NCBI GenBank assembly: GCA_905221605.1
Contig: CAJNDS010002537.1
Span: 62,001-126,000 of the forward strand
Direction: 5' to 3'
DNA from: Symbiodinium natans
Lineage: Eukaryota; Sar; Dinophyceae; Suessiales; Symbiodiniaceae
DNA: 64,000 bases
Below, in pieces: positions 1 through 62,239 of the stretch; the stretch's first letter is position 1, and every line of letters begins with the position of its first letter. The position numbers were made by a program, and so were the translations under genes. The notes below the pieces were generated by a model. It had not been told where the DNA came from and did no database searches. It was given only the letters and a program-made list of their open reading frames with translations.

Positions 1-1990
1 CTAATGGAATTTTTGCGCCACATAAGAATGATTGACTTGTGTTTGAACTGAAAAGGAGCCTCTCCCCAGAAGCTTCCCTGTCCAGCAGACAATGGAAAGG
101 CGTTTCGTGCCAAGAAAGGGGCCCAAGCATTCCCGACACACGGACCGCCGATACTAACCGCGATGATGTCAATAGTGTAGACGAAGATGAGATGTAGATG
201 ACGAAATCAGGAGTGGCAAATGCAGGAGCACAAAGGAACCACAGAATTAGTGTCGCCACAAGTCTGGCTGAAGAAACAACTTGCCAAACCTCTGAAAAGC
301 TCAATCATCAACGCGTCAGCATTTAGGCCTTGAGCTGTTCACGCGGTCCTACTACTTACCTGCTTAGCACCCCGACTTGACGAATGTCGGTACGGAACCA
401 GACTACAAACTTAGAGCCTCCAGCAAAAGTTCGAACTGAATTAATTGGGTTTGACGAAACCCAACGTCTTAAACCTGAACCCTATAGGCCCTGCACGGTA
501 AAACCTGAACGGTAAGCAGCCCTCGCGGAACGCCCGGCATCGAAACAGGATTTTGGAGTCAAACTGCGCGCCTCCCTAGTCGCGTTTTCGTGCTTATGAC
601 CCTGGGACCCACAAGCGAACCGTACGATACCATCGCATCTCATTCAAGGGTTTCCTCCCAAAAATCCTCCACTTGTGAGGATCGTCTAGGCATCAGGCTA
701 GGGTTTTTAAGGTTTTGGGTTTAGTAATTTAGGGTTGAGGTTTAGGGTTGAGGGTTGAGGGTTGAGGAGGAGGTCCCAACCTCCCCGCAGCCCAACCCCC
801 ACCAAAAAATTGAGCCCAAGCAGGAGGGGGCCTCAGGAAGCGGGCAGGCTGGAGCATGCGGAGAAGGAGAAGCTCCACAAGCAAAGCCCGACGACCTGAT
901 GAGTGGAGAGACACCTAAGCTGGAGGCTCCAGCCTCCCCAAAACCAGTGGTTCTGAAGAACCCTCACGTGATGAACCTAGGGCCCCTCCAAGAAGTGGCA
1001 TCTGGAAGTGGGCAAGAGAGAGCCCCGACGGATGGGCAGCCTCCGAAGGGAAAGGGCGGCCCTACCAAAGGGCGAGGCAAAGGAGAGTATCTGCTAGAAC
1101 GCAGAACGGAAGCCCAGAGGAACAAACTTCATTGAGCGTTGATCTTTGCAATGGTGGGTGCTGTCTTTCTACAATGGTGGCTATGAATTGCGGCATTGTG
1201 GTGGAAGTTTTGCTTTTCTGGCTTATGGACGAATCCGTCAGTGCATGTTACAAAAAACATTTTGCGTTTATGACTATGCGGGCTGCCATGATGGGCACCG
1301 GGATGCCACATTGACCTCCTCGTGTCCTGAGCCCGCGGGAATGTTTCACCCGTTTGTTTGGTCGGATCTGGTCTTGGTTTCTGCGGTTCGTGTTTGGTTT
1401 TTTGGTTTTTGCCTGCGCGTTTTGGCTCGCTACCGACTCGTTTCACTGATTTGGCAAAAGACCTGCCTACTGGGCTGCTGACGCAGTAAAGAGGCGACCG
1501 TTCAAAAGAAACAGCACCATTCCGTGATCAGCGGATAACAGGCAGGTTCAGCGGCACCGGGCACAGCGGAGTGCACACGAGTGCCGCACGATCAAGTTGG
1601 GCGTACACCGCGTCAACCCGTGCAGCGCACGCACCTGCAGCAGCAGGCGGCACAAGTTCACAACTGCTGCGGCAGAGGGAACGACTCGACAACAGCGATG
1701 TGAGTCCTTGAGTAGCGGGCGGACAGACCCCGACCAGAACTGGAACAGCTGAGATGGTACACCCAAAACAGCTCAACAGGCCATGGCTCAAGCGGAGAGC
1801 AAACAAGAACAGAAAAAAAACCCAAAGTTCACAACCGACCTGCGAGCCAAGGCTGTCGTACATGCTATGCCGTTGCGTGCAGGCAGTTTAACCTGTTTAA
1901 ACCCCATTGTACAAGTCGTACATGCACGCTTTTCCCATTTTGAGAGTGGTTTTGTGTTGCGTTGTGTCGTGCTGTGTCGTGTCGTGACGT
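1..1990. other. no supported gene; left-edge intergenic DNA
   Basis: I see no recognisable gene here. Degenerate telomere-like repeat (TTTAGGG, TTGAGGG) lies at about 700-775. A plus-strand reading frame at 755-1135 (126 codons, rich in P, G, K and E) begins inside that repeat and has no motif. It could be an exon or chance. Several overlapping frames at 1130-1860 are open on both strands and none looks protein-like. Confidence 0.5.
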
Positions 1991-2009
1991 GTCGTGTTGG
2001 CGTGTGCGT

Positions 2010-2098
2010 GAATGTGAAATGTGAAATGTGAAATGTGAAATGTGAAATGTGAAATGTGAAATGTGAAATGTGAAATGTGAAATGTGAAATGTGAATGT
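2010..2098. repeat. 7-bp tandem repeat (GTGAAAT)n
   Basis: About twelve near-perfect copies of the heptamer GTGAAAT run directly into the TG-rich array that follows. It resembles no telomere repeat used elsewhere in the window. Confidence 0.9.
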
Positions 2099-2415
2099 GA
2101 ATGTGAGTGTGTGTGTGTGTGTGTGTCTCTCTGTGTGTGTCTCTCTGTGTGTGTGTGTGTGTGTGTCTCTGTGTGTCTGTGTCTGTGTCTCTCTGTGTCT
2201 GTGTCTGTGTCTGTGTCTGTGTCTGTGTCTGTGTCTGTGTCTGTGTCTCTGTCTGTGTCTGTGTCTGTGTCTGTGTCTGTGTCTGTGTCTGTGTCTGTGT
2301 CTGTGGGGGGTCTGTCTGTGTGTCTGTGTCTCTGTGTCTCTGTGTCTCTGTGTCTCTGTGTCTCTGTGTCTCTGTGTCTCTGTGAGTCTGTGTCTGTGTC
2401 TGTGTCTGAGTGTCT
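2099..2415. repeat. TG/TGTGTC microsatellite array
   Basis: A dinucleotide and hexanucleotide array (TG, TGTGTC, TCTGTG) that changes unit from left to right. The long open frames on both strands here are translations of the repeat, not genes. Confidence 0.9.
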
Positions 2416-3087
2416 GTTGTTCCGGTGGGGGGAGGGGGGCTTTGGCATTCTTGGGCTCCAAGTGCTCAAAAAGCCAAGGCTTTGGAGAAGTTTGGGATGC
2501 GGCCCGCGGTTGGAGCTTCTGGGCCCAAGCCCTCCCCGGCCTCCGTACCCAAGAGCAACTTTTTGTGCAGTGTTCTGATCTTGTCCATTCGGCCATTTTT
2601 TTGGGGGGATGGCTTAGGGATTAGGGTCTAGGATGGTTAAGGCGGCTAAGGCACTTGGCAAAAATGGCTGACAGCGCGAGTCTCGCGACAAGCTGCAGTG
2701 CTTTCTGATGACCATGCGAACCACCGGCGTTGAGTCGGCTGCCATTACTCGTACGTGTCAAGGTAAACCTGGTGCCAATCGGGCCACACGGATGAAACCC
2801 TTGGGAAATCGCCGGGCCAGAGTCTTTCTTGTCTTAGAACATCTGAGAACTTCGAAGCATGAGTTACTTGCACTTGTCTCGGCCCAGCGACGCAATGGCT
2901 TGAGGCATTCGCTGGAAATTTGGGCCAGCCCCGAAGTAAACGATATTTTCAAAAACTTTGCCACACGAGTGTCAGGAATGAATCCTGCCTGGCCCGCTAG
3001 TCTGTGACACAAGATGAGGACGAGGCCATTGTGAAACGGAAATCATGAACGCACTCTTCCACCTCACTGTCGATCCCCGGCTTTCAC

Positions 3088-11050: not shown

Positions 11051-11088
11051 GATGGATCAGATTCCTACCCTGAACCCTGAACGCCAGC

Positions 11089-12631
11089 CTGTCGCCACAT
11101 AGCCGGCATAAACCCCAGTTGCAGTGCGCGTGAAGTTCAGCTGCAAAGCCATCACCAGCTTAGCGACTGTCAAATCGCTCGCTCCGACAAGCACGGCGAA
11201 GAGCGCAGCATATCCAGAACGCTGAATGAGGTCTCCGGACTGGGTCTCATTCAACGGACACTTGTCATCAAAGTCTGCATATGTCAGCTCCGCAATCAGC
11301 TGATGCTGGTTGTTGTACACGCTCCTCTGCCACTGCGAACTGCAGTCTGTGCGTGGCTGCAACGAGTCCGGAGTCGGCCCCAGGTCCACGAAATAGTGTG
11401 GCACGGAGGCAATGCCGTGAAAATGGCTCGGAAGAAAGGCCGTGCTCACCGACAACTGGAAACTCCCGACAAGGTTTCTCACAATAGTCAAATCTGGCGG
11501 AGGGAGGGCTTGGATCCAAGGTCCAAGAAGAGGGGCACAGGATGTGCTGCCCGCATTCGAATAGGTGTCCTCCTCGCAGGCCAGGCAGTCGTCTATGTCC
11601 GTCTCCAGGTTTGCATCGTACTTGCCGGCGGGACACTCGGAGCAGCCGGTTCCATTGAAGACCTGCCCAGGTGTGCAAAGCGCGCGGATCGCGAGCTGCA
11701 CTTTCCAAGTGTCATCCACCTCAGCTCCTCCCACATCTCCACAGCAGATCACAAAGGTACCTGGAGCAAGCAATACAGCGCTTGCACTGTGGCGGGCCGG
11801 AGGAGCATCCAACGCACCATCGTGTAAAGTCCTCCATTGGTGAGTCCCCACATCAAACTGGTACAACGACCCTGAATCCTGGTTACTCGCAAGCTCACCA
11901 CCATAGATGATCAGCTGGTCCTCAAGTTCATCGTAAGCCATGTTGACCTGGATCCGAGCCAAGGGAGCACCTGGACCGGATAGCTGGCTCCAAGTGTTAC
12001 TTGCGAACGAATAGCTCCACAGATCGTTGAAAAGCACGTGCCCGCAAGTCCCAAGCTGACGGCCGCCGAAAATAAACATGAGACCACGGCGTTTGGACAC
12101 GGCGCTGCCATGACCATAGCGCAGATCGGGACCATCCGTGGATGGCAGCATTTCTTCCCACGCCAAGCTGGTCAAATCCAGGGACCACAGCTCTCTTGAT
12201 CTACTGCAGGTGGAGTGTCTAAGCTGAAATCCTCCGAACATGAAGATTGCACTCTGATCAGGTGCAACTTCCATGCTATGGCCGTATCGAGGTATTGGGT
12301 TCACGTCGTTCTGAGTGCTGAAGGCCACTTGTGCCCATACCCGCGTAGCGGGATTAAAGTGCCACATGTCTGAAAGATATGTCCCGGTGGTGCCGGAAAC
12401 ATGATAGCCCCCATAGATGAATAGGTCCTTCCCTACAGATGTAGCCGCATGGCTGTGCCTTGATTGCGGCCTTAGCCCCGGAATAGATAGCACCTTCCAG
12501 CTCGAAGCTGCGAACTGCCACACATCCGACAAGGAGAGCCCTCCATCTTGCCCACCGAACAGCAATGAGCCATGGTATTCGACGTTGGTGAAGGTAGCAT
12601 CCTGCCGAACTCCTGGGCCTCCTCCGCCTAC
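11089..12631 (-). CDS. Kelch-repeat protein with Cys-rich (GCC2/GCC3-like) module, large exon
   Basis: One long minus-strand exon of about 514 codons. The acceptor is TTCAG before GTAGGC at 12631, and a GC donor is likely near 11089. Residues 1 to about 290 hold five or more Kelch blades, each with a GG turn and downstream Tyr/Trp: GSLLFGGQDGG, DLFIYGGYHV, AIFMFGGFQL, LMFIFGGRQL, QLIIYGGEL. They should form a beta-propeller. A Cys-rich segment follows (CTPGQVFNGTGCSECPAGKY, then CLACEEDTYSNAGSTSC), typical of extracellular GCC2/GCC3 or EGF-like modules. About 150 C-terminal residues have Cys pairs and N-glycosylation sequons. I infer a secreted or surface adhesion-type protein. No ATG or signal peptide lies in this exon, so 5' exons are missing; a 3' exon is also likely. 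Confidence 0.85.
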
Positions 12632-32085: not shown

Positions 32086-32450
32086 GAGATCTTCGCAAGA
32101 ACCAATTCTAAATTCTTGGCGCTGATGTTTGCAGTTGAGCCTACGTGGAAGCTAATTTTGCCGGTCTTGGTACAGTTGGTGTCTCGCAAAAGCTCCTAGT
32201 TTGAAGGCAATCAACAGCACTTTCCCAAAGTATATGAACCGTGGATATCATGGAAGCACAAAACCACTCCATCTTTCCCAGCCTGCATCATTTCCGATCC
32301 TCAGGGCCCAAACACCATTGATCTCCGATGCAGCTGTGCAGAACGAGGAAAAGGGGCAAGTGAAAATTGGACTTAGCCAACCCGTAGAACGTCAAACGAG
32401 TCGGCAGTGCTCTGTTTGCTGCAAGCCTTCGTTCAATGCACTGCCGGGCC

Positions 32451-34546
32451 TCAGGCCGCATCATGGTGACATGAAGCAAGGCAGTTCTTCTCAAGTGCTG
32501 TCGCGAGTGCCTAAGGGATGACGTGCCAGTGCAATAAATGTCTGGAGAGCAACCGGGCCTTGGTACCCTCGTCACCAATGGAATTGCAATCGAGGTTGAT
32601 CCTGGTGACAGTGCTGTTCTTCTCAAGCGCTGTCGCGAGTGCCTGGGGAAGGGATGAAATGCCAATGCAATAAATGTCTGGAGAGCAACCGGGCCTTGGT
32701 ACCCTCGTCACCAATGGAGTTGCTCTGGAGGTTGATCGTGGTGACAGTGCTGTTCTTCTCAAGCGCTGTCGCGAGTGCCTGGGGAAGGGATGAAATGCCA
32801 ATGCAATAAATGTCTGGAGAGCAACCGGGCCTTGGTACCCTCGTCACCAATGGAGTTGCTCTCGAGGCCGATCGTGGTGACAGTGCTGTTCTTCTCAAGC
32901 GCTGTCGCGAGTGCCTGGGAAAGGGATGACGTGCCAGCGCAATAAATGTCTGGAGAGCAACCGGGCCTTGGTACCCTCGAGACCAATGGAATTGTTCCCG
33001 AGGTTGATGGTGGTGACAGTGCTGTTCTTCTCAAGCGCTGTCGCGAGTGCCTGGGGAAGGGATGACATGCCAATGCAATAAATGTCTGGAGAGCAACCGG
33101 GCCTTGGTACCCTCGTCACCAATGGAATTGCCCCGGAGGTTGATCCTGGTGACAGTGCTGTTCTTCTCAAGCGCTGTCGCGAGTGCCTGGGGAAGGGATG
33201 AAATGCCAATGCAATAAATGTCTGGAGAGCAACCGGGCCTTGGTACCCTCGTCACCAATGGAGTTGCTCTGGAGGTTGATCGTGGTGACAGTGCTGTTCT
33301 TCTCAAGCGCTGTCGCGAGTGCCTGGGGAAGGGATGACATGCCAATGCAATTAATGTCTGGAGAGCAACCGGGCCTTGGTACCCTCGTCACCAATAGAAT
33401 TGTGCAGGAGGATGATCGTGGTGACAGTGCTGTTCTTCTCAAGCGCTGTCGCGAGTGCCTGGGGAAGGGATGACGTGCCAGTGCAATAAATGTCTGGAGA
33501 GCAACCGGGCCTTGGCACCCTCGTGACCGACGGAATTGAGCTCGAGGTTGATGGTGGTGACAGTGCTGTTCTTCTCAAGCGCTGTCGCGAGTGCCTGGGG
33601 AAGGGATGACGTGCCAGTGCAATAAATGTCTGGAGAGCAACCGGGCCTTGGTACCCTCGTGACCAATGGAATTGCACACGAGGTTGATCTTGGTGACAGT
33701 GCTGTTCTTCTCAAGCGCTGTCGCGAGTGCCTGGGGAAGGGATGACGTGCCAGTGCAATAAATGTCTGGAGAGCAACCGGGCCTTGGCACCCTCGTGACC
33801 GACGGAATTGAGCTCGAGGTTGATGGTGGTGACAGTGCTGTTCTTCTCAAGCGCTGTCGCGAGTGCCTGGGGAAGGGATGACGTGCCAGCGCAATAAATG
33901 TCTGGAGAGCAACCGGGCCTTGGTACCCTCGTGACCAATGGAATTGTTCCCGAGGTTGATGGTGGTGACAGTGCTGTTCTTCTCAAGCGCTGTCGCGAGT
34001 GCCTGGGGAAGGGATGACATGCCAATGCAATAAATGTCTGGAGAGCAACCGGGCCTTGGTACCCTCGTGACCAATGGAATTGCCCCCGAGGTTGATCGTG
34101 GCGACAGTGCTGTTCTTCTCAAGCGCTGTCGCGAGTGCCTGGGGAAGGGATGACATGCCAATGCAATAAATGTCTGGAGAGCAACCGGGCCTTGGTACCC
34201 TCGTCACCAATGGAATTGCCCCGGAGGTTGATCGTGGTGACAGTGCTGTTCTTCTCAAGCGCTGTCGCGAGTGCCTGGGGAAGGGATGAAATGCCCATGC
34301 AATAAATGTCTGGAGAGCAACCGGGCCTTGGTACCCTCGTCACCAATGGAGTTGCTCTCGAGGCCGATCGTGGTGACAGTGCTGTTCTTCTCAAGCGCTG
34401 TCGCGAGTGCCTGGGGAAGGGATGACATGCCAATGCAATAAATGTCTGGAGAGCACCCGGGCCTTGGCGCCCTCGTCACCAATGGATTTGCCCCCGAGGT
34501 CGATCGCGGTGACAGTGCTGTTCTTCTCAAGCGCTGTCGCGAGTGC
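32451..34546 (-). CDS. LRR array 1: fifteen 28-residue LRR exons separated by 52-nt introns
   Basis: Fifteen exons of 84 nt start at 34546, 34410, 34274 and so on every 136 nt down to 32642. Each encodes one ribonuclease-inhibitor-type LRR (ALATALEKNSTVTTINL then xxNSIGDEGTK), and all join in phase 0. The 52-nt introns start GCCCGG and end CCCCAG. A terminal exon (32510-32451) adds ALATALEKNCLASCHHDAA and TGA. Variation between units is concentrated at the two residues after INL, the variable surface positions of an LRR. Read without introns the array looks frameshifted, because 136 is not a multiple of three. No N-terminal exon is attached: sequence right of 34546 matches only the intron upstream of array 2. 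It is either a truncated copy or shares exons with array 2 by alternative splicing. Confidence 0.75.
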
Positions 34547-35099
34547 CTGGGGAAGGGATGACATGCCAATGCCTTTGTCAGGGAGCAGCTTGGCTTGATG
34601 ACTATTGTAAGGCAAATCGCATCTCATTGTGCGAGATAGCACGTTGTGGATCCACAAAGTCTGCCTCTTCCACATGCATGTTTCAATTGAGTCAGGCCTT
34701 TATACGTGGGCGTGGGTCTGCATCCTGGAGCTGTGGCTGGTCAACGTTGCCTTCTGCATCTGCAACCTAGATTTGTGGCATGACTTGCATGCAACCACTG
34801 AAGGAAGCAGAAAGGGTGACTCACCAAGTCGTGCGCAAGAGTAGGGTCGAGTCCCAAATCAAACTGCAAACTTGAGTTTGAAGTTTGAATTTTATGCATC
34901 AGTCAACAATGCACTTAAAACGTCTGATGCGCTCCTCTGCTGACTACCGTAATCTCCAATGCAGCTGTGCAGACTGGAAAAGGGGCAATGAAAATTGGAC
35001 TTAGCCAAACGACCGTAGAACGTCAAGATAAATTACTAAACATGACGAGTCGCCTGTGCTCTGTTTCCTGCAAGCCTTCGTTCAATGCACTGCCGGGCC

Positions 35100-38000
35100 T
35101 CAGGCCGCATCATGGTGACATGAAGCAAGGCAGTTCTTCTCAAGTGCTGTCGCGAGTGCCTATGGGATGACGTGCCAGTGCAATAAATGTCTAGAGAGCA
35201 ACCGGGCCTTGGCACCCTCGTCACCAATGGAATTGCGATCGAGGTTGATCGTGGTGACAGTGCTGTTCTTCTCAAGCGCTGTCGCGAGTGCCTGGGGAAG
35301 GGATGAAATCCCAATGCAATAAATGTCTGGAGAGCAACCGGGCCTTGGTACCCTCGTCACCAATGGAGTTGCTCTGGAGGTTGATCGTGGTGACAGTGCT
35401 GTTCTTCTCAAGCGCTGTCGCGAGTGCCTGGGGAAGGGATGAAATGCCAATGCAATAAATGTCTGGAGAGCAACCGGGCCTTGGTACCCTCGTCACCAAT
35501 GGAGTTGCTCTCGAGGCCGATCGTGGTGACAGTGCTGTTCTTCTCAAGCGCTGTCGCGAGTGCCTGGGGAAGGGATGACATGCCAATGCAATTAATGTCT
35601 GGAGAGCAACCGGGCCTTGGTACCCTCGTGACCAATGGAATTGCCCCCGAGGTTGATGGTGGTGACAGTGCTGTTCTTCTCAAGCGCTGTCGCGAGTGCC
35701 TGGGGAAGGGATGACATGCCAATGCAATAAATGTCTGGAGAGCAACCGGGCCTTGGCACCCTCGTCACCAATGGAGCTTGACTCGAGGTTGATGGTGGTG
35801 ACAGTGCTGTTCTTCTCAAGCGCTGTCGCGAGTGCCTGGGGAAGGGATGACATGCCAACGCAATAAATGTCTGGAGAGCAACCGGGCCTTGGCACCCTCG
35901 CGACCAATGGAGCTGAAGTTGAGGTTGATGGTGGTGACAGTGCTGTTCTTCTCAAGCGCCGTCGCGAGTGCCTGGGGAAGGGATGACATGCCAATGCAAT
36001 AAATGTCTGGAGAGCAACCGGGCCTTGGCACCACTGTTGAGGGTGATCGTGGTGACAGTGCTGTTCTTCTCAAGTGCTGTCGCGAGTGCCTGGGGAAGGG
36101 ATGACATGCAAATGCAATAAATGTCTGGAGAGCAACCGGGCCTTGGTACCCTCGTCACCAATGGAATTGCCACAGAAGTTGATCGTGGTGACAGTGCTGT
36201 TCTTCTCAAGCGCTGTCGCGAGTGCCTGGGGAAGGGATGACGTGCCAGTGCAATAAATGTCTGGAGAGCAACCGGGCCTTGGCACCCTCGTCACCAACGG
36301 AATTGTGCGAGAGGTCGATCGTGGTGACAGTGCTGTTCTTCTCAAGCGCTGTCGCGAGTGCCTGGGGAAGGGATGACATGCCAATGCAATAAATGTCTGG
36401 AGAGCACCCGGGCCTTGGCACCCTCGTCACCAATGGAATTGAGCTCGAGGTTGATCGTGGTGACAGTGCTGTTCTTCTCAAGCGCTTTCGCGAGTGCCTG
36501 GGGAAGGGATAACATGCCAATGCAATAAATGTCTGGAGAGCACCCGGGCCTTGGCACCCTCGTCACCAATGGAATTGCCCCCGAGGTTGATCGTGGTGAC
36601 AGTGCTGTTCTTCTCAAGCGCTTTCGCGAGTGCCTGGGGAAGGAATGACATGCCAATGCAATAAATGTCTGGAGAGCAACCGGGCCTTGGCACCCTCGTG
36701 ACCAATGGAATTGCTCTCGAGGTTGATCGTGGCGACAGTGCTGTTCTTCTCAAGCGCTGTCGCGAGTGCCTGGGGAAGGGATGACATGCCCATGCAATAA
36801 ATGTCTGGAGAGCAACCGGGCCTTGGTACCCTCGTCACCAATATAATTTTCCCGGAGGTTGATCGTGGTGACAGTGCTGTTCTTCTCAAGCGCTTTCGCG
36901 AGGGCCTGGGGAAGGGATGACATGCCAATGCAATAAATGTCTGGAGAGCAACCGGGCCTTGGCACCCTCGTGACCAATGGAGTTGAACTCGAGGTTGATC
37001 GTGGTGATAGTGCCGTTTTTCTCAAGCGCTGTCGCGAGTGCCTGGGGAAGGGATGACATGCCAATGCCTATGTCAGGGAGCAGCTTGGCTTGATGACTAT
37101 TGTCAGGCAAATTGCATCTCATTGTGCGAGATAGCACGCTGTGGATCCACAAAGTTTGCCTCTTCCACATGCATGTTTCAATTGAGTCAGGCCTTCACAA
37201 TGGCCTTTGCTGTCTTTGCGGAGTTTGCTCGGATCTGTAGCTTTTGGAGGACTTCGTGTGCTCCCAGTGCCTGAAGGCTTCCAAAAATGATGGCTCATAG
37301 GGAAATGCAGGACAAGTCCCAGCCTCCCCAAGAGCGTGGGCCTCCCTTTCATTGGCTTCGAAGTTGAGCAGCTGCAAGATTCGGAGGCGGTGGTAGAATG
37401 GCAACGACTTGGCCAACTGCATCACCTCACCTTCTGGGAGGTTTTCGAAATGCACCTCCTCACACACCGTCACCTTCTCATGAAAAATCTTCTCCTGTAG
37501 TTTGATGACTTGCGGGGCATCATGACGGTGTGTGAATTTTGAGTTTGCCATGTGCTTCTCAAATTCTTTGGGGGCCATGGGCACTTTGCCCCTGAAGCTG
37601 GCCCCGGATTCAATTTGCACCGCATCGATTTGTTGGTTCTTCTTGGTGGCACTTTTGGCCGAAGACCACTCGATCTCGGCGAGGCACCACCCACGCATCT
37701 TATATGGGATCGGGTTGTGCAACAATTCTCGGAGCGGAATGGTCTGGATCGATTTGCTGGGTACATGATAAACCGGGACTTTCTGCTCCGAGTTGTTCAG
37801 CCAAAAATCATCTGGGGTGAGACATTCAAGACGGAAGGTCAAGCAGTGCTCATGAGCATACATTACATGCATGTTGGCCATCGATCGCCGGAAGCTCTCC
37901 TCTTCCTCTGGCGTCTGCCGCTCAAATTGAAAAAGAGAAATATAATCGTAAAATATCCAAATTTCTGAGAAATAAGCGGCATCATAGAGAGCTACACAGC

Positions 38001-38396
38001 TGACCAACTTCTCTAGTTGGAAGCAACATGGGTCTGGGTGCTGTTGACTTTCCCAACTATGGGAAACCGAGCAAAGGATCGCATCTCTTCCTCCTGCAGA
38101 CCACTCAACAACATGTTCGTGGCTCACCAGCGCCAAGGTCTCCTCGCTCAGAGGAATGGCATGAGAACACTAGATGATTCGCATGTCATAGCGGCCTGCT
38201 GTGCTTCTTGACGTCTGGGCAAAGGCCTGTTCGACCTCCGCAGCTCGTAGAGGTACCTCTTGGCAGCAACCACGGTGGCAAACACAAGAGGTCCTCTCTG
38301 TGAACACATGCGTGGGCACTCTGCGCGAACCAACCGAATATCAGCATCTTGTAAGAACTTGGCCAAAGCTTTTCGGTCTCTCAGGCTGTATTCAGC
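35100..38396 (-). CDS. LRR receptor-like protein with N-terminal SHSWES domain (array 2)
   Basis: Exon A 38396-38205 (64 codons, LVFATVVAAKRYLYELRR) joins through a 62-nt GC-AG intron to exon B 38142-37324 (273 codons). Exon B carries SVSHSWESQQHPDPCCFQLE, IWIFYDYISLFQFERQ, SMANMHVMYAHEHCLTFRLE and MRGWCLAEIEWSSAK, an arrangement I associate with a large dinoflagellate-specific family whose cytosolic head resembles TIR-type effector domains. B ends in an LRR-like piece (MQLAKSLPFYHRLRILQLL). Next come a 66-nt LRR exon (37270-37205), fourteen LRR exons starting at 37041 with 136-nt spacing, and a terminal exon (35159-35100) with stop. Predicted total is about 764 residues. One unit (36089) lacks 18 bp and stays in frame. 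Exons 5' of A are probably missing. A sensor or scaffold role is inferred from architecture only. Confidence 0.8.
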
Positions 38397-42908: not shown

Positions 42909-44589
42909 CTACTCAGTTGCAAACGTCTTGAGGGCACAGCTTGGGGTGGCGTCGGCAGTCCTGCCGCTCTCGCTCGCGCGCGTCTGTCCAGGAAGCACGT
43001 ATGTCCAGGCCACGCATCGCAAGTCGTTCAAGCAAAAGTCGGAACAGTTTTGGGCATTTGCAGCGTCAGGTGCATGTGGACTCATCGGGAAGTTCATGTA
43101 GTCAATTCCAGGGATGTCTGTCGTGTTCAGGATCTGCCCACCAAGAGGGTTCGAAGTCAGGCCAACACTGGCGTATTGCGTTGCGGACACTTCGCGGATG
43201 CGAAGCCCAAGGAACGCCTCAGGCTCAATGTCAAAGAGGTCCTGCGGGAACGTAATGGTGGCGATGATTTCTTGTTGCTGGGAGCCTCCCGGCTTCACAA
43301 GATTCAAAGGGCTGGTAGCGGAAAGCACTTGCGGAACCGCCGAATGGTAGAGGGTCTCCTGGCGCAAGCCATCCAGCGAGGGAAGCGGGTATACTCGGAG
43401 GGTGCGGTACTGGGAGTCGTATTCCATGACTCGCGGAAGTGCCTGCAGACCGGCCCACTTTCCATTTGATAACCCATACTCCCGGACCCATCCGAATATG
43501 ATACGCCTGTTCATGACAGGGTCGAAGAAGGACTTGGAGGCATAGTAGTTTCCATAATCCAGTGGGACTGCGCTGCCCATCCGGACAAACTCCCTGCTCT
43601 CCCAGTCAAAGAGACCGAGCCAGTAGAAATCCAACGTGACGACCATCATGGACAACTTCAAAACCCAAATGCCAGCAGGGCTCATGATGTCGTCAGCTTC
43701 TGTAGGTTGCAGGTTAAAGAAGTCGGGGCACTCAAACATTCCCCGCGGCACATAGTTCTCTTGAAGCAGTATGCTGTCAAAGCTCCACCTCCGAAACGAA
43801 GAGTCGGCCGAGTAGCCAACCACTGCAGCTACCGGTGCACCGGCTGCCTCGCCACCCGCACCCTTCAAGCTGGTCGCTAGGTGCATGAGGTAGAGCTGGC
43901 GCCTCTCATCCCACAATGCAGTCGTAGGGTCTCGGAAGATCGTGATGCTCAGGCCACCTGGTGGCACTGAAGCGATGACCGGGTTGTCGGGATCTTCCTG
44001 CCACTCGATCAGCATCGGGTCGGAAGTGTTCTTGGGCCACGCCAAACACTGGAGTTGAGCTTTTGTGCCTGCACAGGTGTAGGCAATGATCGGATGGCTG
44101 CCATTCACCAAGGTCACCGAGCCGGAGTAAAACCCGGCATCCGCGTATGGGTACTTGGAAGGATTGAACCTCAGGGCTTCCGTCACGCCCACGTGCTCCC
44201 AAGTGACGCCGTCCCAGCTCACGACGTGGTACCAAGACATATTCCCCCAGTTTGCACCGCCGGGGTTGTATTGCATCCACAGATGGATTAGGCCAGTTCT
44301 GGGGTCGCGGAAGGGCCCGTTGGGATCGTTGATCCAATTTTCCTTGGTAGCCCAGCAACCATATCACAGTAAGGGCACCCTTCTTTTTGGGATGGCCACT
44401 TCATAAAGGGAACCCAGAACCAAAAAAAAAAAAAGAGTAAAGGGCACCACTGGGCCACCAAGCTTCAGGTGGCCGCACATGAAACACAGGAAAGTAGGGG
44501 TCAGCCTCGGGATCGGAAGCAGCTGAAAGTCCTCCGAGCAGAGCAGCCAGCATGGCCAGCACGGGATGCACAAAAGAAGCCATGGACAT
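42909..44589 (-). CDS. secreted glycoside hydrolase family 32 (invertase/fructosidase type)
   Basis: Two exons, 44589-44467 and 44342-42909, joined by a 124-nt GA-AG intron, predict 518 residues. Exon 1 starts ATG at 44589 and encodes a signal peptide (SFVHPVLAMLAALLGGLSAA), then FHVRPP. The join creates HVRPPENWINDPNG, the hallmark nucleophile motif (Asp47). RDP is at residues 178-180 (Asp179, transition-state stabiliser) and the ECPDFF motif carries the acid/base Glu245. IFGWVREYG and the five-bladed propeller spacing fit GH32, which hydrolyses sucrose or fructans. The end (NCSDFCLNDLRCVAWTYV, then SCALK) looks like a PAN/Apple-type Cys module rather than a full GH32 beta-sandwich, which may be shortened. 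Four or more NxS/T sequons support secretion. The alternative is a fructan-active rather than sucrose-active enzyme. Confidence 0.9.
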
Positions 44590-60913: not shown

Positions 60914-62153
60914 TCAGCACACTGAGCCCTGCAAGGCATGTCGCGGCAGCGCGACCTGAACCTTCACGGGGGAAGGTTGGCCGTCTTGATTCTCGCCGAA
61001 GCAGACCAATTTGCCACCCGCCGTCACGGCACCTCATTCTCGGAAGCCCAGATTAAGATTCTCGCTTCGTTGTCCCCTTTTGAGCCAAAAAAACACCAAT
61101 ACAAAAACTTGAAAAAGATGTTCAACAAAAAGCAGCCAAGGAGCAGGTGTGGCGAAACCCTGCGGCTACGGCAACCACAGGGCCAAGGTCTGTCGGTACA
61201 TTGTGCTGGCCTGCGCTGGGGCCCATGCAAACCAGCTCGCCGCTTGCTGTCACGGCACACGTGTCACGAAATCCGGCAGCCACGGCCACCACTGGGCCAA
61301 GGTCGGCTGGCACGTCACACTGGCCATGCTCGTTGGATCCGAAGCAAACCAGCTCGCCGGTTGCTGTCACGGCACAGGTGTGATAAACTCCTGCAGCCAC
61401 GGCCACCACTGGACCAAGAGTTGGGGGCACATCGCACTGCCCGTGATGGTTGGATCCAAAGCAAACCAGCTTGCCCCCTTCCGTCAAGGCGCAGGTATGA
61501 GAGTTTCCTGCGGCCACGGCCACCACTGGAGCAAGGTCCGTGGGGACGTCGCACTGGCCGCAGTAGTTCGAGCCAAAGCACACCAGCTTGCCAGCCTGTG
61601 TCAGGGCGCAGGTGTGATAGGCTCCTGCAGCCACGACCGACACCGGACCGAGGTCCGGCGGTACGTCGCACTGGCCGCCTTTGTTCGATCCGGAGCAAAC
61701 CAGATCACCGCTTGCCGTCACGGCACAGGCGTGAAAATCTCCGGCTGCCACTGCAACCACTGGACCAATGTCTGGCATGTCGGTCTGGCTAAGAGCGCCA
61801 AAACTCAACAGCCGGCCGCACTCGCTGATTGCAGAGATGTGATTGAGGCCTGCGGCTACTGGAGACTCTGATGCGGAGCGGAAGGTCACGGCCAAGAACG
61901 GCAGGACAAACTCCCGCGCCAAGCTGGCAAACACGGCCGCATGCGGTTCCCTCTTCTTGTTCAGGTCTACAAGGAGCCAGCAAAGGTGGCGGAGGTCTTT
62001 GTCCAAGATGTGCAGGCCATCTGCGCGCAAGTTGAGGATGGCCATGCTGGGGGGGGGGGCCGGGGCTGGGGGGCAGCCTTTGTGCTGTCGGACAAGCCCT
62101 GTGCTTAGGCTTGAGACGGAGGGGCACAAACAACTCAACCTCAACGCTGCCAT
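60914..62153 (-). CDS. RCC1-repeat protein, two exons
   Basis: Exon 1 runs from the first ATG (62153; MAILNL at 62045 is an alternative start) to 61145. A 112-nt GC-AG intron (61144-61033) leads to exon 2, 61032-60914. The join restores HTCAVTAGGKLVCFGENQDG from a frame that otherwise ends in stop. The N-terminal 100 residues are helical (LHILDKDLRHLCWLLVDLNK). Seven RCC1-type units of 41 residues follow (DLGPVVAVAAGxxHTCAVTA, then SGELVCFGSNxxGQCDVP), predicting a beta-propeller; the last is incomplete. Such repeats occur in RCC1, UVR8 and HERC-type proteins. This short protein has no HECT domain in view, so I give no specific function. The DNA units are about 123 bp and still similar, so the repeats are young or homogenised. 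Confidence 0.85.
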
Positions 62154-62239
62154 GCTGATGTGGCGAGCTGGTAGTAGGGGGATGTTTGAGCAGACGCGCT
62201 CCACACAAGCAGGCTTTTGGGCACAGGGCACCACAGTCG

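Follow-up and report, generated by a model that had tools for sequence, protein, structure and literature searches.

Probable tandem exon–intron modules encoding leucine-rich repeats in Symbiodinium natans and the candidate recognition gene family to which they would belong

How can a 136-bp tandem repeat whose reading frames are broken by stops encode an uninterrupted repeat protein? The question is raised by a locus in a 64,000-nucleotide (nt) stretch of the dinoflagellate Symbiodinium natans (assembly GCA_905221605.1, contig CAJNDS010002537.1, positions 62,001 to 126,000; this whole stretch is called the window). An earlier note on this DNA had read the repeat as about 29 copies of a leucine-rich repeat (LRR) exon, each carrying its own intron. 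We propose, with a probability of roughly 75%, that the repeats are the coding parts of a dinoflagellate gene family joining a conserved N-domain to ribonuclease-inhibitor (RI)-type LRRs, that this family has grown by duplication of exon-plus-intron modules, and that its LRRs form a fast-evolving recognition surface.

Two arrays of probable one-repeat exons

Tandem Repeats Finder, which we used to delimit the repeats, returned a period of 136 at 32484-34572 (array 1; 15.4 copies, 94% matches) and at 35133-37067 (array 2; 14.4 copies, 89% matches). The interval had previously been described as one array; there are in fact two, about 550 bp apart, and both lie on the minus strand, a further correction. 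The estimate of about 29 copies agrees with our count of 29 full units (15 + 14), to which 2 terminal partial units are added. The arrays are laid out as follows.

32511..34546, minus strand: array 1, 15 modules of an 84-nt LRR exon plus an intron (14 of 52 nt, one of 48 nt)
32451..32510, minus strand: terminal exon of array 1, phase 0, ending in a stop
35160..37041, minus strand: array 2, 14 modules, with 13 exons of 84 nt and one of 66 nt, and 13 introns of 52 nt and one of 48 nt
35100..35159, minus strand: terminal exon of array 2, phase 0, ALATALEKNCLASCHHDAA followed by a stop

The proposed division into an 84-nt exon and a 52-nt intron describes 28 of the 29 exons and 27 of the 29 introns; the departures are a 66-nt exon in array 2, shortened by an in-frame deletion, and two 48-nt introns, each the last of its array. 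Indels within units thus measure 18 nt (a multiple of 3) in the exon and 4 nt in the intron. All 29 introns begin with GC, end with AG and are directly followed by GC, in the context already reported (AAG before, GCACTC after, with GCCCTC as the single variant). When joined, all 29 exons are open in phase 0 and both arrays reach a stop in the same terminal exon (the stops end at 32451 and 35100), whereas the unjoined frames hold 8–14 stops per array and a longest open run of 135 residues. Each exon encodes one 28-residue RI-type LRR, and joined array 1 matches Pfam LRR_6 (E 7e-64); the other Pfam matches of the joined array, none of which has a stretch that passes by itself, were taken as repeat artefacts.

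The expectation of phase 0 from first exon to last stop was borne out for the arrays and left ambiguous for the terminal exon. A tail, EALKSIEERTAANR, common to the window and to two related loci of the same genome (L009 and L010), sits in another frame of the terminal-exon stretch, and reading it needs an acceptor 13 nt further on than that of the phase-0 exon. Unrelated places, too, were hit in the search for this tail (window 7397 and 58413, L009 6335 and L041 5739, in script coordinates), and the codon-position tally of that search was not used.

Probable splice joins in diverged loci

Exon framework and intron are equally alike among the units of the window (differences of 0.042 and 0.041), so the window by itself cannot decide whether the 52-nt pieces are introns. 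We therefore compared it with diverged loci of the same genome (759 Mb, 2543 contigs; loci numbered with L). L009 and L010 were found by DNA search and further loci by searching with the N-domain described below, which gave at least 97 matches; LRR exons were looked for beside 30 of these (L011–L040), mostly within ~1.5 kb on each side, and longer flanking stretches were taken at L009, L041 and L042.

An even spread of substitutions over exon and intron, which the earlier note had named together with a lack of transcription as evidence contrary to splicing, is what the window contains, but it disappears in the diverged loci. Between the window and L009 the framework exon difference is 0.205 and the intron difference 0.486; the corresponding values for L010 are 0.224 and 0.463, with third codon positions in excess in both comparisons (computed without the last L010 exon and without introns of 70 nt or more). 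Units of L009 and L010 have a period of about 140 with an 84-nt exon, and are separated by intervals of 50, 53, 55, 56, 61, 165, 532 and 1224 nt. GC..AG borders were present at 16/16 of these intervals, including the one of 1224 nt, which is the gap separating two L009 arrays and need not be an intron. The 165-nt interval owes its length to a telomere-like TTTAGGG/CCCTAAA tract within an LRR intron (L009:4300-4450), with the splice dinucleotides kept; TTTAGGG-type tracts are also frequent in the window.

With a hidden Markov model (HMM) built from the 28-residue exon, we located 51 exons in L009, L010, L015, L041 and L042, with AG before 50 and GC after 47 of them. The 42 intron lengths between close neighbours in these five loci are distributed 16/14/12 over the remainders modulo 3. 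By contrast, among 77 script-delimited exons of the window and the five loci, 68 measure 84 nt and six another multiple of 3 (66, 75, 81, 81, 102 and 108 nt); the remaining three are an L010 exon mis-called as 76 nt, where an earlier AG/GT was taken and a GC donor lies at 84, and two left uncalled by the residue rule. Exon length in the diverged loci is thus constrained and intron length free modulo 3. When we listed the donor/acceptor pairs shared by every unit in stretches of five loci (15, 4, 7, 4 and 3 units), only the acceptor at 0 with the donor at 84 was open and phase-keeping everywhere; no other splice definition was so in all five. In an intron-less paralog, L016, the N-domain and LRR run form one open reading frame (ORF) of 634 residues, and its repeats, three of which exceed the HMM cut, meet at precisely the joins that the splice model predicts. 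The L016 protein (664-2514, minus strand) starts MGGCCS, which presumably resembles an acylated, membrane-anchored N-terminus.

A 21-mer that we take to be the dinoflagellate spliced leader occurs in 205 exact copies in the genome, against 0 for a reversed-pattern control; in such a host GC-AG introns are normal. Symbiodinium introns start with GC almost as often as with GT, and G commonly follows the acceptor AG (PMC4083563), a rule of GC, GT or GA donor with AG acceptor before G that 29/29 window introns obey. In Symbiodiniaceae, 25-74% of introns are GC/GA-AG and telomeres consist of (TTTAGGG)n (PMC11453091). Because exon length is constrained and intron length free, the borders are GC..AG, L016 joins its repeats at the predicted points and a single splice definition fits, removal of the 52-nt pieces by splicing is very likely, as the earlier note had supposed.

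Two other histories bear on these data. The repeats might be a decayed minisatellite, formerly coding and then amplified as a 136-bp satellite that is neither transcribed nor spliced; this would suit the likeness of exon and intron parts within the window, a splicing case drawn from genomic sequence, and the fact that array 1 has no N-domain exon. It is improbable for the locus as a whole given 29/29 open exons, indels of 18 nt in the exon and 4 nt in the intron, GC..AG at 29/29 window and 16/16 L009 and L010 intervals, and a ratio of nonsynonymous to synonymous divergence (dN/dS) of about 0.14 in the upstream N-domain; for array 1 alone it is a possible reading. Alternatively, each intron might be an introner element, inserted separately at the same place of intron-less repeats. 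Introners are common in dinoflagellates (PMC11453091) and an intron-less paralog exists in L016, but introns within a locus are about as alike as the exons, which fits duplication of whole modules; separate insertion is judged very improbable.

A conserved N-domain in frame with array 2

Upstream of array 2, and missed by the earlier note, lies a conserved N-domain that can be joined to the array in frame. The proposed exons and intron are as follows.

ending at 38320, minus strand: proposed exon a, guided by relatives
38196..38256, minus strand: proposed exon b, ending in YLYELRRSNRPLPRRQEAQQ, after a 63-nt GT-AG intron; joins chosen to match relatives such as P0060
37324..38142, minus strand: proposed exon c, the conserved, weakly HET-like N-domain
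37193..37270, minus strand: proposed exon d (ALGAHEVLQKLQIRANSAKTAKAIVK), phase 0, with the donor AAG/GC; a homologous exon is present in L009
37042..37192, minus strand: proposed GC-AG intron of 151 nt, separating exon d from the first LRR exon of array 2

Phase-0 joins would connect exon c, exon d and the first LRR exon once GC-AG introns of 53 nt and 151 nt are removed, and exon d and its donor recur before the first LRR exon of L009. We also considered, for both arrays, a phase-0 reading from the upstream stretch (MRC..GIGMSSLPQ) into the first LRR, which would make the 3' half of every intron once-coding sequence. It was rejected because L009 and L010 have similar intron tails, several with an in-frame TGA or an in-phase TAG end, and because exon d supplies a phase-0 donor.

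The N-domains of the window and L009 are 69% identical, with dN 0.207 and dS 1.47 over 281 codons, the pattern of a domain under purifying selection. Of its 95 relatives, nine carry NCBI names, all from Symbiodinium and seven of them as NLRC3; in 4/95, seen as protein sequences, the N-domain is fused to LRR_6. No Pfam family matched the window exon, and the L009 domain gave one chance-level match. HET (PF06985) was matched by 4/38 family members, with scores of 17.7-20.6 bits that stay under the curated cut-off of 22.5 (E 0.0006 to 0.005; profile positions 2/3-146 of 146), with no match above the cut-off in the window exon or L009. One HET-matching member, P0093, is 32% identical to the L009 domain. 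We treat the weak HET likeness as a lead and not as membership. NACHT was absent from the Pfam matches of the N-domain exon and the 38 members, the gene's 5' start not being delimited, and no N-domain relative was confirmed in IMG/VR. AlphaFold2 models of the L009 domain and L016 had predicted local distance difference test (pLDDT) scores of 81.6 and 83.1. Assignment of the N-domain to a known fold was dropped, as Foldseek returned no match for the L009 model at E <= 0.001 in PDB or BFVD; the L016 model matches NOD2 and ribonuclease inhibitor, in keeping with its LRR part.

Three contigs (C192, C2105 and C2454) hold clusters of many partial N-domain matches (query 145-295), which are perhaps tandem gene arrays of the N-domain/LRR family.

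Hypervariable codons at the end of the LRR strand

Variation among the window's near-identical units is concentrated at two codons that the earlier note had not remarked. In the 28 full-length exons, codons 18 and 19 encode 10 and 9 different residues, and their diversity is 0.48, compared with 0.041 for the intron and 0.051 for the exon beyond codons 17-20. Pairwise differences at these codons comprise 642 nonsynonymous and 7 synonymous changes. A concentration of this size in any six neighbouring bases arose in 2/20000 runs with site diversities shuffled, a test that used the 26 units of exactly 136 nt. Nonsynonymous difference (pN) at codons 18-19 is 0.579 in the window, 11-fold the synonymous difference (pS) of the framework, 0.051. 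In L009, L010, L041 and L042, where codon 21 is variable too, pN at codons 18-19 is 0.57-0.66 against a framework pS of 0.17-0.36, and at these two codons pN is clearly larger than pS in the window, L009, L010 and L041 (exons used: window 28/29, L009 10/10, L010 7/8, L041 14/17 and L042 10/11). As units of an array are not independent samples, these figures are contrasts with the intron as yardstick and not formal tests.

The LRR strand of the L016 model lies at register 14-16; from this and LRR geometry, residues 14, 16 and 18 would point to the concave face, and residue 19 to the adjoining loop. Exposed LRR positions tolerate change, and many LRR proteins have no immune role, so the introns might be real and the protein structural or of general binding function, its variable codons reflecting relaxed constraint at solvent-exposed sites. 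The L042 values, with pN not above pS at codons 18-19, are of the kind that such an account would predict. In the window, however, pN at these codons is 11 times the framework pS and their diversity 12 times that of the intron; because this diversity exceeds the intron yardstick, relaxed constraint alone is insufficient, and we consider the account unlikely, if the most plausible of the rivals. A mutator or templated conversion aimed at codons 18-19, by which variability would be produced and not merely selected, is hard to credit: the 16 different 6-nt states among 28 units, set in near identity elsewhere, would suit it, but the codons listed change in all bases with no single-base signature, and variation is graded over further exposed codons in other loci. 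Diversifying selection on exposed residues is the more probable source of the pattern.

In the comparison of the window with L009, synonymous divergence reaches a pS of 0.644 in the N-domain but 0.390 in the LRR framework; loci may have exchanged LRR units, or the exon sequence may be constrained.

Duplication and layout of the arrays

The flanks of the two arrays are alike on both sides, from which it follows that arrays 1 and 2 are a tandem duplication.

34571..34700, minus strand: 5' flank of array 1, whose 130 bp match the corresponding flank of array 2 at 96% identity; homology stops at the exon d donor
32321..32500, minus strand: 3' flank of array 1; its counterpart beside array 2 (34952-35149) is 86% identical

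Since the 5' homology stops at the exon d donor, no N-domain copy accompanies array 1. That array retains the intron and acceptor without exon d and the N-domain, and the second L009 array similarly lacks an N-domain of its own; the layout of L009 is likewise array, tail, array, tail. Three readings of array 1 may be considered: a copy without function, a gene in its own right, or another sensor cassette that splicing can reach. The same unit series, GLES-NLQS-NLD(R/C), closes both arrays, inner units stand in different order, and one array 2 unit is identical to an array 1 unit over the part compared. The suggestion that a module carrying its own intron lets LRR number change is in line with the unit counts: 14 and 15 in the window, 6 and 4 in L009, 8 in L010, and at least 5, 17 and 11 in L015, L041 and L042, respectively. 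Exon skipping is possible in principle because every module keeps the frame.

Comparison with known repeat systems

Three described systems share parts of this anatomy. Tetrahymena, also an alveolate, has tandem arrays of uniform one-LRR exons that grow and shrink, probably by unequal exchange, and that its authors thought unique and evolved once (PMC6564038); its exons are 90 bp in phase 2, whereas those of the window are 84 bp in phase 0. Vertebrate NOD/NLRC genes, like the window, carry one 28-residue RI-type LRR per frame-preserving exon (PMC6642158). Their exon border falls within the beta-sheet, whereas in the window each border separates residue 28 of one repeat from residue 1 of the next, some 13 residues ahead of the strand as placed in the L016 model, and they possess the NACHT domain absent from our Pfam matches.

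The third system comprises Podospora het-d/het-e and other high-internal-conservation (HIC) NLRs, in which near-identical repeats with a few hypervariable codons and variable repeat number stand behind a HET domain (PMC12222747, PMC4986451). Near-identical repeats, hypervariable codons and variable number recur in the window family, and its weakly HET-like N-domain stands where the Podospora proteins have an N-terminal HET domain; their repeats, however, are WD40, ANK or TPR combined with NACHT, and those of the window are LRRs. The accessible parts of these papers describe no intron per repeat. As to the properties that define HIC repeats, the window exceeds the identity of about 85% (94% and 89% matches; framework difference 0.042), with L009 and L010 more diverged; a few diversifying hypervariable codons emerge from simple counts on non-independent units, L042 not being clear; and NACHT or NB-ARC architecture was not seen in the Pfam matches of the N-domain exon and 38 members. 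Symbiodinium proteins named NLRC3 at NCBI (P0055, P0057, P0058 and P0059) likewise have the N-domain followed by RI-type LRRs, but their repeats are diverged, and they are known here as protein sequences; the literature search on them listed no publication describing these proteins.

Other coding sequences in the window

Three further ORFs, all on the minus strand, lie outside the arrays. One of 370 residues (61122-62234) encodes RCC1 repeats over a 117-bp tandem repeat (61227-61772) and is another coding tandem array. Long single ORFs at 11057-12565 and 42909-44276 encode a kelch-repeat protein and a protein with a glycosyl hydrolase family 32 domain and a PAN domain.

Discussion

We propose that the locus encodes a protein in which a conserved, weakly HET-like N-domain is followed by an RI-type LRR solenoid, presumably expressed from a spliced transcript in which each LRR comes from a single 84-nt exon in phase 0 with a short GC-AG intron behind it. 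The exon-plus-intron module would be the unit of tandem duplication, so that unit exchange, probably unequal, would alter repeat number without damage to the frame and keep the units near-identical. Where the LRR strand ends, selection would diversify exposed residues (codons 18-19, and elsewhere also 21). The most likely role of such a protein is recognition through a fast-evolving, repeat-built binding surface.

Several observations weigh against this proposal. The case for splicing is built on genomic sequence; in-window similarity is the same for exon framework (0.042) and intron (0.041); and the absence of stops from 28 full-length window exons is weak by itself, since redistributing the observed substitutions at random gives 2.65 stops on expectation and none in 130/2000 runs. 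Read in phase 0, the terminal exon is at odds with a tail that L009 and L010 conserve, and array 1 stands without an N-domain exon of its own. The HET matches fall below the curated cut-off and the N-domain has no fold match. At codons 18-19, pN is 0.635 against a pS of 0.643 in L042, the margin of pN over framework pS drops from 11-fold in the window to 1.6-3.4-fold elsewhere, and the units compared are non-independent.

A more specific and tentative reading is that this is a HET-like/LRR recognition family, a cassette-built sensor in which cassette exchange sets number and order and a few codons per cassette set specificity. In the window and L009 one N-domain precedes two arrays, each with its own tail, and splicing could choose between them. 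The family might then serve a self/non-self or immune system of a single-celled alga, resembling Podospora het-d/het-e with LRRs in place of their repeats and with modules that carry introns. One-LRR exons and near-identical hypervariable repeats are each already known; their combination in a dinoflagellate is new to the literature searched. Our searches, with most subscription papers outside their scope, found no hypervariable, repeat-modular recognition family described in dinoflagellates.

For gene prediction, the locus illustrates why programs should accommodate 84-nt exons and GC-AG introns when repeats are near-identical. If the proposal is true, exon-array LRR genes would be present in a second lineage of alveolates; the Tetrahymena authors had suggested a single origin for them (PMC6564038). 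Dinoflagellates include coral symbionts and bloom formers, and recognition of partners or rivals among them would become testable at the level of genes.

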